From: Candidatus Manganitrophus sp.
GTDB taxonomy: Bacteria > Nitrospirota > Nitrospiria > SBBL01 > Manganitrophaceae
Assembly (NCBI GenBank): GCA_028865235.1
Contig: CP114561.1
Span: forward strand, 3,802,001-3,866,000
Length of the DNA: 64,000 nucleotides
Direction of reading: 5' to 3'
The notes under the pieces are model-generated. The model had not been told where the DNA came from, did no database searches, and worked only from the letters and a program-made list of their open reading frames with translations. Positions 22,785 through 29,614 of this stretch are shown piece by piece (position 1 is the stretch's first letter; each line of letters opens with the position of its first letter). The position numbers were made by a program, and so were the translations under genes.

Positions 22785-24078
22785 ATGGAGGGAGCTGTGG
22801 TAAGACCCCAAAAATGGGATCTGATCATCGTCGGCAGCGGGGCGGGGGGGCTTGTTCTTGCGCTGGAGCTGGCGAAGAAGGGGCTTCAGATCGCAATCCT
22901 CGACCGGCAGCCGCATCCCGGCTCCCTTCCGAGGGGGAGATTATCCAGCCGAACGGCCTCCGCCTTCTCGACCGCTTCGGCCTTCTTCCGGAACTTCTCG
23001 CCTCCGATATTTATCGAAATGAGCGTGTGGACTTCTTTCAAAAAAAGGACCGCTTCTCTGCACCGTCGATTATCGTCTCCTCTCTGCTCCTTATTCCTAT
23101 TCTTTGATCCTTCTCCCCAAGGTTGCACAGGACCTTCTCTTAAAGAAAATCGCTCAGAGATCGAATGTCTCTCTTTTTTGGGGGACCACTTTCCAAGGTT
23201 TCGTATATGAAGGGACGAAGCGGACCGGGGTGGAGGTCGACTGGAACGGGGAGAAAACAACATTGCGCGCGCCGGTGATCGTGGGGGGAGACGGCGTCCG
23301 CTCCGCGATTCGGACGGCGCTTCAGATCGAGCATCGGCTTCATCAATATAAGGATGGTTATTTAACGATGGTCGTCGATCGCCCCCCCGGGTTTGAGGGG
23401 GAAACGCGTTATTATCTCGGCCGCCGGGAGATCTTCGGCGCTTTTCCGGTCTCAAAGGAAAAAATTTATCTATTTTATATGGTTCCTTCCGGCTGTTTAG
23501 AGAGGCTTCGCGAGGGGAGCTTTGAGCAATTTAAAGAGAAGATCCTCTCCTTCCACCCCGCCACCCGTTCCGTTTTAGACGCACCGCTCAAAGCGGTTTC
23601 TTCTTGGAAGGAGACCTCCTACATGCCCTGTTTTCGGGTTCGATGCCGGCGATGGGTCACGGACGGCGCCGCGCTGATCGGGGATGCCGCTCATGCGATG
23701 AACCCTCATGTGGCGCAGGGGAGAAATACGGCGATGGAAGATGGAATCGTTCTCGCGGAGGTTCTGGAGGAATGTTTCCGGAAGGGAGATTTTTCGGCGG
23801 AAGCGCTCTCTCACTACGAATCACGACGGCGCCCTTCCATAGAGGCGCTCCAACGGCTTGGAGACGAGCTGACCTGGCTCTGGAACAGCGGTTTCCCTCC
23901 GGTCACCTGGGCGCGAGATCGGATCTTCCGGTCGATCCATTGCAAACGAGATCTCCATGATAAAATCCTGATGACAATCGCGGGATTAAAGGAGAGTCCC
24001 TTTCATTTAACCGATCGTTGGAGAGCGCTCCATCTTTGGGGCGGGCTTCCCGATGGTCCCCGAGAGAATCGAACATAG
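22785..24078 (+). CDS. FAD-dependent monooxygenase/oxidoreductase (frameshifted)
   Basis: A UbiH/PHBH-fold flavoprotein of about 430 residues. The N-terminal dinucleotide motif is IVGSGAGGLVLALELAKKG, the DG motif is VIVGGDGVRSAIRTAL and the GD motif is ALIGDAAHAMNPHVAQG, so the FAD site is complete. The frame breaks near three C at 22924-22926 and at seven A at 23040-23046; one added base in each restores EIIQPNGLRLLDRFGL and the following segment. Substrate is unknown; an aromatic or isoprenoid quinone precursor is typical. It lies immediately upstream of the exopolysaccharide locus but shows no link to it. Confidence 0.82.
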
Positions 24079-27976: not shown

Positions 27977-28227
27977 GTAGCATTCCTAGGATCTCAAGAT
28001 TTATCCTTGACCTTCCGAATAATGATATAGATTCAATCTAATCATCCGTCGGGTTGAGAAGCGGAGTGATGTAACAGCTTGCAGTGCCCCCGTGCGGCAT
28101 GGAATCTTTTGGTGGTGCGTCTAACCGAATGGATCACTGGAAATACATGATAAGAAGAGGGTCCCCCCTCTTTTGGGGGGATTGATATTTGGGCGATTAT
28201 CGCTTAGATTGTAACAATGTTTCGGCA
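27977..28227. other. Non-coding region downstream of the luxR-type gene
   Basis: About 250 bases without a credible gene. It holds a C6/G6 hairpin (28162-28168 with 28175-28181, loop tctttt), which could end the regulator transcript but has a weak T-tract. No tRNA-like fold was found. Confidence 0.4.
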
Positions 28228-28325
28228 AGAAAAAGGGTAGCGATGGACGGATCGCTACCCTTTTACCTCCCTGAGTGGTGGTAAACGCTTCTTGTAAGGA
28301 GGGTATCCCGGTGGATGAGATACAT
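28228..28325 (-). ncRNA. Candidate small RNA, copy 1
   Basis: Read on the minus strand, a sigma-70-type promoter is followed by about 97 bases without a gene and a very strong intrinsic terminator. The RNA would start near 28325-28323, form a 5' hairpin (GTATC 28323-28319 with GATAC 28307-28303), carry a C-rich CCCTCCTTA segment that resembles the anti-Shine-Dalgarno tail, and end in a 14-bp stem (28264-28251 with 28244-28231) plus UUUUUCUU. Copy 2 at 28796-28893 shares promoter, 5' hairpin, the GATACCC motif and the terminator arms, while the middle differs. This conservation of RNA parts suggests a real sRNA family. Expression is not shown. Confidence 0.6.
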
Positions 28326-28330
28326 TTATT

Positions 28331-28360
28331 CATATATCATCTTTCAGGAATGCCTGTCAA
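28331..28360 (-). promoter_or_regulatory. Promoter of candidate small RNA copy 1
   Basis: On the minus strand, TTGACA (28360-28355) is separated by 18 bases from TATATG (28336-28331). The same -35, spacer length and near-identical -10 recur in copy 2. Confidence 0.55.
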
Positions 28361-28490
28361 GATTCCCTCCTTTTGAAATTGAAACAATCCTGTGAAGTAT
28401 AGAGGCTCTTACCGGAGCCGTGCTTCGAACCCTGTGAGACAGAGTATTATTATGCCACGATTAACGAACTACCATGTAGGAAGGGCAAGC

Positions 28491-28795
28491 ATGGCGAAAG
28501 AAATCGATCGAGAACGGAGGGAATCAGAGCGGTATGGGCTTCGGACAAAAGTAATGTATGAGCCCTCCGCGGGACTGGACCTTAAAGAAAAGGTGCATGC
28601 TGGAAGAACGATCAATATCAGCAGCGGGGGGTTTGTCTGAAGACGGAAACACCTCTATCGCAATCCCAGATTATACGGGTAAGCATCCCTATCCCAAAAG
28701 TAAACGCGATGTCGCCCACATTGGCAGAGGTGTGTTGGGTAGAGGGGCTGAAGAAGCAAAAGGGATATTGGGTCGGCCTTCGTTTTCTCTTATAA
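28491..28795 (+). CDS. PilZ-domain protein in the exopolysaccharide locus (frameshifted)
   Basis: A PilZ domain of about 101 residues. The RxxxR motif is in RERRESERYGLR and the second motif in NISSGGV, with the cyclic-di-GMP-binding Arg and Ser/Gly residues present. The frame stops after NISSGG because of six G at 28626-28631; seven would read on to a conserved-looking end (VSIPIPKVN, YWVGLRFLL) and stop at 28795. AAGGG precedes the ATG at 28491. It lies between the two candidate small RNA genes and upstream of the export gene, so it may tie polysaccharide export to cyclic di-GMP. Confidence 0.78.
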
Positions 28796-28893
28796 ATAAG
28801 GAAAGGGCAGCGATGGCCAGATCGCTACCCTTTCAGTTTCCTTAATATTGATCGTCCCATAAGGCGGGGTATCTCCACGATGGGGGAGATACA
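28796..28893 (-). ncRNA. Candidate small RNA, copy 2
   Basis: Homologue of the RNA at 28228-28325. The minus-strand RNA would start near 28893, fold a 5' hairpin of 8 bp (GTATCTCC 28892-28885 with GGAGATAC 28876-28869), carry GATACCCCGCCTTA, and end in a stem of 28834-28821 with 28814-28801 followed by UUUCCUUAUUU. The terminator stem differs from copy 1 at one pair, which in the minus-strand RNA becomes a U-G wobble but on the plus strand would be a C-A mismatch. That supports the minus strand as the functional one. Its end abuts the PilZ stop codon. Confidence 0.55.
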
Positions 28894-28898
28894 GGTGC

Positions 28899-28928
28899 TG
28901 TATATCACGATATAAAGACCTGTGTCAA
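28899..28928 (-). promoter_or_regulatory. Promoter of candidate small RNA copy 2
   Basis: On the minus strand, TTGACA (28928-28923) is separated by 18 bases from TATACA (28904-28899), matching the layout of copy 1. Confidence 0.55.
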
Positions 28929-28929
28929 T

Positions 28930-28971
28930 ATCCCCTCCTCCCGCACCCGCGAGTTGGACGAGGGGATTTTT
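28930..28971 (+). promoter_or_regulatory. Hairpin in the leader of the export gene
   Basis: An 8-bp stem, atcccctc (28930-28937) with gaggggat (28960-28967), is followed by TTTTTG and ends a few bases before the ATG of the export gene. It could be an attenuating terminator. The 3' arm also contains GAGGGG, a possible ribosome site for ATG 28976, so it might act on translation instead. Confidence 0.45.
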
Positions 28972-28975
28972 GTTT

Positions 28976-29614
28976 ATGACTGGAGGAAATGTGTCTGTCG
29001 GAAAGTATTTCATCGGGATCTTTTTAGGGTTGGTTCTACTGACGAATGGCGCCTGCGCCAAACGCCAAGGAACGGTTTCTCAATCTGAGAATCAAACGGC
29101 GGAGATGCAGGAATCGACCATTTCAGCCTCTGGAGAATATATTCTTGGCGCGGAAGATGTCGTAGAAATCCTTGTATGGAAAAATGAAGCGCTTTCCCGG
29201 ACGGTGTCGATCCGTCCCGATGGTAAGATTTCACTTCCGATTATCGGTGATTTACAGGCGGCCGGCTTGTCAGCAACGCAGTTGCGCGATTCAATCAAAG
29301 AACATCTGCAGGAGTTCAAAGAAACCCCCGAGGTCTCGGTCATCATCCGAGAAGTCAACAGTCTGGCCGTTTTTATCCTGGGAGAGGTCGCCCGTCCCGG
29401 AAAACTTCAGCTGAGAAGCGAGACGACCCTCCTTCAGGCCTTGTCCTTATCGGGCGGGTTCACCCAGTATGCAGATCCGGATAACATTCTCCTCTTGCGG
29501 AGAGAGAGGGGTGGTGAGACGCGGATCCGCGTCCGCTACAAAGACATCGTCAATGGCAGGAATCCCGACGGAAATGTTCTTCTCCGTCGGGGGGATACCA
29601 TTTTAGTTCCATAA
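28976..29614 (+). CDS. Polysaccharide export protein (Wza/EpsE type)
   Basis: An outer-membrane export protein of about 212 residues, matching the short form found in exosortase A loci. A signal peptide with a weak lipobox (TNGAC) is followed by a Poly_export domain (YILGAEDVVEILVWKNEALS ... IRPDGKISLPIIGDL) and a SLBB repeat (VFILGEVARPGKLQL). Such proteins form the outer-membrane channel for the polymer. A GTG at 28991 with GGAGG four bases upstream is a strong rival start. It heads the export genes, with the chain-length determinant next. Confidence 0.88.
   Translation: MTGGNVSVGKYFIGIFLGLVLLTNGACAKRQGTVSQSENQTAEMQESTISASGEYILGAEDVVEILVWKNEALSRTVSIRPDGKISLPIIGDLQAAGLSATQLRDSIKEHLQEFKETPEVSVIIREVNSLAVFILGEVARPGKLQLRSETTLLQALSLSGGFTQYADPDNILLLRRERGGETRIRVRYKDIVNGRNPDGNVLLRRGDTILVP

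Follow-up and report, generated by a model that had tools for sequence, protein, structure and literature searches.

Antisense-induced transcription attenuation is best known from the control of plasmid replication. The antisense RNAs of plasmids pT181 and pIP501 induce attenuation of transcription (PMC5415839), and these systems (pT181/pIP501, RNAIII) are the ones that the locus described here resembles most in its architecture. Their short antisense RNA is encoded across from the leader of the gene it controls, and this leader can pair in alternative ways and has an intrinsic terminator immediately ahead of the gene; we find, or predict, the same features here. On the other hand, our locus is chromosomal, it precedes an exopolysaccharide export gene rather than a replication gene, and it would employ two paralogous antisense RNAs, one of them opposite a leader without an obvious second terminator. 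The likeness is one of architecture, as attenuation is a prediction here and we know of no sequence relation.

Two other kinds of regulation need to be mentioned. Chromosomal cis-antisense small RNAs have, as predicted here, their own promoter, a 5' hairpin, a terminator and full complementarity to the overlapping message, but the present ones would form a duplicated pair with a shared stem, flanking a PilZ gene and restricted to one genus. Processive antitermination of the RfaH/LoaP type resembles our case in that a polysaccharide operon is involved whose first genes are preceded or separated by several terminator-like hairpins; however, Rfam recognised no antitermination element here. A search for a specialised NusG paralogue returned a single NusG match in the genome (about 87% complete), and since only one NusG-type gene was found, with no dedicated paralogue, antitermination of this type was rejected.

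The window analysed is a stretch of 64,000 nucleotides from Candidatus Manganitrophus sp., a bacterium of manganese-oxidising type. It holds two minus-strand modules of one build, paralogous to each other (copy 1 at 28229-28372 and copy 2 at 28799-28940), with 570 bases between their terminator stems. An earlier sequence-only reading had described the same module twice on this strand, with coordinates and sequences that we confirm, and had proposed two homologous small-RNA genes that run antisense to an exopolysaccharide operon and stand on either side of a PilZ gene at its head. Our analysis upholds this proposal, and the operon is of the XrtA/PEP-CTERM type. We consider a function for the locus very probable, and a pair of antisense small-RNA genes is its most likely identity. 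As a tentative overall reading, to which we assign a probability of about 0.45, we propose that the modules are paralogous genes for antisense small RNAs of about 95 nt, which most likely act on the operon by antisense pairing with its message. The features discussed are collected in Table 1.

Table 1. Positions of the genes, promoters and structures at the locus, numbered within the window
Feature	Positions	Strand	Remarks
Operon promoter: palindrome CCCCCCTCTTTTGGGGGG, TTGATA, 17 bases, TAGATT	28163..28210	+	conserved; upstream of copy 1
Predicted small RNA 1, about 95 nt	28231..28325	-	5' hairpin, GATACCCTCCTTA, middle, terminator
Terminator stem-loop, small RNA 1	28231..28264	-	U-tract stronger in minus direction
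5' hairpin P1, small RNA 1, GTATCTC..GGGATAC	28303..28323	-	one U-G pair, minus strand
Extended -10 TGATATATG, small RNA gene 1	28331..28339	-	18-base spacer; consensus final T absent
-35 TTGACA, small RNA gene 1	28355..28360	-	invariant in 11/11 copies
PilZ-domain gene	28491..28795	+	frameshifted here; whole in relatives
Predicted small RNA 2, about 95 nt	28798..28893	-	covariance-model match and fold
Terminator stem-loop, small RNA 2	28801..28834	-	terminator scan calls minus; plus strand also ends pilZ
Possible anti-terminator strand P0, AAGGCGGGG	28861..28869	+	pairs with CCCCTCCT at 28932-28939
5' hairpin P1, small RNA 2, GTATCTCC..GGAGATAC	28869..28892	-	fold, alignment
Hairpin P2+, GATACAGGT..ACCTGTGTC	28888..28926	+	overlaps minus promoter; arms covary across six genomes
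Extended -10 TGATATACA, small RNA gene 2	28899..28907	-	18-base spacer
-35 TTGACA, small RNA gene 2	28923..28928	-	invariant in 11/11 copies
Terminator-like hairpin T2, ATCCCCTC..GAGGGGATTTTT	28930..28971	+	just before wza ribosome site
wza-type polysaccharide export gene	28991..29614	+	likely GTG start after GGAGGAAAT

Profile matches identify the genes downstream of the modules as an XrtA/PEP-CTERM exopolysaccharide set. PrsT, the TIGR03013 glycosyltransferase and the deacetylase passed curated cut-offs, while the export protein, the chain-length protein and the tyrosine kinase matched their XrtA families below cut-off; the wza-type gene itself matched TIGR03027 (E 7.8e-42, under the curated cut-off) and Pfam Poly_export (above cut-off). 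Upstream lies a gene for a LuxR-type regulator, whose likeness to EpsA is confined to the DNA-binding end. The pilZ gene (PF07238, E 2.7e-11 in the orthologue of genome G002) sits between the two modules, as had been claimed, but its ORF is split in this genome because of a one-base deletion near 28628 (TTT versus TTTT in relatives, after a run of G). As the gene is intact in all five relatives, the frameshift should be either a sequencing error or a recent loss. Elsewhere in the window, at 22785-24078, an open frame judged by eye to resemble an FAD-dependent monooxygenase is seemingly broken into overlapping frames, perhaps by another frameshift.

In a sister family that has neither pilZ nor the small RNAs there, the LuxR-type gene and wza are separated directly by the same arrangement of palindrome and promoter that precedes copy 1, and the palindrome with its TTGA motif was found again in 14 of the 18 genomes scanned from the order. 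Judging by the position of this promoter, the operon message should start near 28214 and cross copy 1, pilZ and copy 2. It follows from position that both predicted RNAs would lie opposite the predicted operon transcript and be complementary to its leader. The promoter, the plus-strand structures with a terminator beside copy 2 and the pilZ frameshift had gone unremarked in the sequence-only reading. As a separate observation, genomes from two families of the order hold 2-12 occurrences each of CCCCTC-N4-GAGGGG placed one base before a TTGA-type -35 (28163-28187 here), against almost none in a reversed control; this palindrome is probably the operator of an uncharacterised regulator.

Read 5' to 3' on the minus strand, each module begins with a G-rich box (AAGGAGGGAAT in copy 1, GAGGAGGGGAT in copy 2), followed by TTGACA, an 18-base spacer ending in TGA, TATAYR and a hairpin which begins at the predicted start site; then come ATACCC(C)NCCTT, a variable middle and the terminator stem-loop AAAGGGTAGCGAT-N6-ATCGCTRCCCTTT. 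The promoter elements named earlier are thus present, but the -10 hexamers (TATATG at 28336-28331 in copy 1, TATACA at 28904-28899 in copy 2) lack the final T, which is also absent in 5 of the 15 other TTGACA+TGnTATA sites of the genome. This promoter form is enriched in the genome (17 occurrences vs. 1 in the control). In all 11 copies known from the genus, TGATATA is invariant, the -35 and -10 elements are 17-18 bases apart and P1 starts 8-9 bases after TATA. In the whole 4.55 Mb genome the longer pattern TTGACA-N15..22-TATA-N4..16-GTATCTC has just two occurrences, both of them in these modules, and the reversed control has none. A covariance model of the 11 copies, both window copies being among the sequences used to build it, matched copy 1 with 144 bits and copy 2 with 143 bits, over the bounds given above. 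Both predicted RNAs fold more stably than their shuffled versions (200 each), with z of -4.45 for RNA 1 and -4.71 for RNA 2. The earlier statement that neither module has an ORF fails when taken literally, as an ATG ORF of 70 codons (28333-28121) crosses copy 1; however, none of the ORFs running across copy 1 or copy 2 is conserved in the other genomes, and therefore the RNAs still look non-coding, as had been suggested. Promoter, structured RNA and terminator are conserved together, as expected of a small non-coding RNA gene.

The feature is real, conserved and restricted to the genus. Both copies are present in four of the five other genus genomes, and the fifth and most diverged (G004) retains copy 2 but carries unrelated sequence at the site of copy 1, a copy that this genome has probably lost. 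In the genus genomes searched, the terminator stem (with up to two mismatches) occurs only at the module sites, that is twice per genome and once in G004. No further copies were found in the genome, other DNA matches being weak and short, and the covariance model, run against 270 genomes from the class and 396 from the phylum, found no convincing member outside the genus. Among the candidates rejected, a full-length match in G499 (36.5 bits) was a generic AAAGGGG..CCCCTTT terminator without TTGACA, and the matches in G497, G431 and G033 were terminator-driven. When the stem pattern was scanned across 84,980 species, paired stems appeared only in two contigs, of Candidatus Manganitrophaceae and of a Nitrospirae bacterium; the other 16 matches were single, scattered over unrelated taxa and taken as chance. 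Rfam 15 gave nothing above the gathering threshold in the window or in the relatives' loci (permissive matches lay far below it and were put down to chance), in keeping with the earlier remark that no named RNA family has this build.

The leader of G004 (L014) deserves a comment of its own. The place of copy 1, in the stretch from the operon promoter to pilZ, is taken by another hairpin, AAGGTGACATAC..GTATATCACCTTTTT, which is terminator-like on the plus strand, so that a terminator-like hairpin is found in this leader in every genus genome.

One might suppose that a terminator-containing segment was recently duplicated at random and has no function, since the two copies are only 570 bases apart and their stems are near-identical. 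We consider this scarcely credible. A tree of the copies gave two fully supported clades, and orthologues are 73-99% identical while paralogues are 56-64% identical, therefore the duplication predates the divergence of the species holding both. Even at 56-64% identity, the paralogues still share promoter, hairpin and terminator. Conservation is also block-wise, as seen in the mean identities across copy 2 orthologues: the T stem-loop stands at 98%, the CCCATAAGG..GTATCTCC block at 93%, the P1 arm at 85%, the -10 at 88% and the -35 at 93%, with the CCTTATGGG motif also among the conserved blocks and, on the plus side, the T2 3' arm with its U-run at 97%, while the P1 loop (27%), the spacer (46%), the middle (60%) and the T2 loop (48%) drift. 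Tree and footprint together refute a recent duplication. Among the refutations that the sequence-only reading had named for itself, this disposes of a recent random duplication, and the presence of the modules in relatives disposes of a lack of conservation there.

Which strand carries the RNA is indicated by the stems. P1 and the terminator have undergone four independent one-sided changes that can tell the strands apart, and every one of them leaves a G-U pair in minus-strand RNA but an A-C mismatch in plus-strand RNA. One further stem change breaks pairing on both; a sign test of this asymmetry, with about four events, gives 1/16. The U-G change in the terminator stem, already noticed in copy 2 by the sequence-only reading, was confirmed and occurs only in this genome and in G005. 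The terminator U-tract is longer in the minus direction. Covariation in P1 and the terminator amounts to one compensatory pair, with a score reached by 42 of 500 shuffles. Stem changes, U-tract and promoter form are thus suggestive of a minus-strand RNA, and we think it probable that such RNAs exist. As promoter, hairpin and terminator have survived between old copies and the stem changes favour the minus strand, two genus-specific antisense small-RNA genes are likely.

It could also be that the modules work as DNA-level elements only, namely as bidirectional terminators and operator palindromes (for instance for the upstream LuxR-type regulator), with no stable minus-strand RNA. The stem can indeed act as a terminator in either direction and closes off pilZ, the promoters are surrounded by several inverted repeats, and a GAGGGG palindrome abuts the -35 of the operon. 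Nevertheless, neither the fixed order and spacing of promoter, hairpin and terminator in both paralogues nor the minus-strand G-U preference is explained in this manner, and we regard it as improbable.

Another idea is that the small RNAs act in trans, using CCUCCUUA to block ribosome sites of the operon or of other messages. It draws on CCTCCTTA, which is found in several copies and which we take to be identical to the usual 3' end of 16S rRNA. The anti-Shine-Dalgarno role suggested earlier for copy 1 did not stand up, though, as CCCTCC is paired with the downstream GGGAGG in this copy and copy 2 of this genome reads CCGCCTTA. Target prediction for ribosome-site pairing was equally unhelpful to it: no start region in the window was clearly above shuffles, the best p being 0.05 among 29 genes for each of the two RNAs. 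Action in trans is therefore very unlikely.

We thus return to two antisense small-RNA genes and to the message that they would meet, as the plus strand beside copy 2 has structures of its own. T2 is present in all six genus genomes; it folds at -20.5 kcal/mol, ends 20 bases before the likely wza start codon, and has a 5' arm for which AAGGNGGGG, lying opposite small RNA 2, offers an alternative partner. In P2+, the wobble count favours the plus strand (8 G-U and 7 mismatches vs. 4 and 11), a G-C pair has become A-U in G004, and perfect 12-pair stems of different sequence occur in G001 and, bar one U-G, in G004; the alignment used for P2+ covariation misplaces G001 at T2, so that the T2 and P0 cells of this genome are undercounted there. 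Folding of the nascent RNA gave P0 a probability of 0.80-0.99 in G001-G004 and of 0.20 in G000 and G005, and when the small-RNA region was blocked, P0 vanished and T2 stood at 0.99-1.0. In the genome studied here, P0 pairing is weak, with one C-T mismatch; it reaches no more than 0.20 in nascent RNA, where T2 already prevails with no small RNA bound. A competition between terminator and anti-terminator of the pT181/pIP501 type is therefore clear in G001-G004, weak here and absent at copy 1, which has neither a long P2+ nor T2.

These structures give rise to the chief and a serious rival of the antisense RNAs. P0, a small hairpin and P2+ might build a three-way junction before wza, a plus-strand leader element which competes with T2 in the manner of a riboswitch or attenuator, the minus promoter being incidental. 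P2+ covaries and favours the plus strand, P0 pairing is possible in every genome, the wza ribosome site has the conserved T2 beside it, and the AAGGAGGG/CCCTCCTT complementarity is seen in copy 1 too, all of which fits such an element. On the other hand, P1 and T prefer the minus strand, copy 1 retains TTGACA-18-TGATATA without a long P2+ or T2, and the T stem-loop, the most conserved part of all, would have no role there except termination. On balance, we find this explanation unlikely.

If the modules are antisense small-RNA genes, each would be transcribed from a sigma-70-type promoter of its own into an RNA with a hairpin at its very 5' end and an intrinsic terminator, with copy 1 situated in the operon leader, copy 2 in the gap between pilZ and wza, and the operon transcribed the opposite way. 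Most likely, the RNAs would act by antisense pairing with the operon message as it is being made. The plus-strand segment UAAGGNGGGG, which otherwise competes for CCCCTC, would be masked by small RNA 2; with UAAGGNGGGG masked, the terminator CCCCTC..GAGGGG-UUUUU might form before wza and transcription would stop. What our analysis establishes is the conserved anatomy, the strand preference, the old duplication, the promoter of the operon and the presence of T2 as a terminator-like hairpin. Production of the RNAs, their pairing with the message and termination as its result are successive suppositions, and the attenuation mechanism as a whole is possible but rather doubtful. As copy 1 lacks T2, attenuation in the same form cannot be its mechanism; it may act differently, for instance through leader pairing or through convergent transcription with the operon promoter that it faces. 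Because the stem arms are nearly the same, each RNA could also touch the other's site, and this might result in a dual brake on the operon. A full chromosomal two-RNA antisense attenuation circuit, in which ancient paralogues sharing a stem act on the leader and on the first gap around a PilZ gene, has rather low odds in our opinion. In such a circuit one RNA overlaps a plus-strand switch, and the same DNA would therefore encode functional structures on both strands.

Among the papers searched, none joins Manganitrophus with exopolysaccharide, and the titles and abstract openings of those retrieved on PEP-CTERM with small RNA mention no such RNA. As an RNA family the pair is new; in kind it would stand out only if the attenuation circuit were demonstrated. 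If our reading is true, relatives of Candidatus Manganitrophus would have two regulatory RNAs peculiar to their lineage, situated where the export of extracellular polysaccharide is controlled. They would also offer a tractable case of antisense attenuation circuits arising by duplication, in a chromosomal polysaccharide operon where the device would be used twice.
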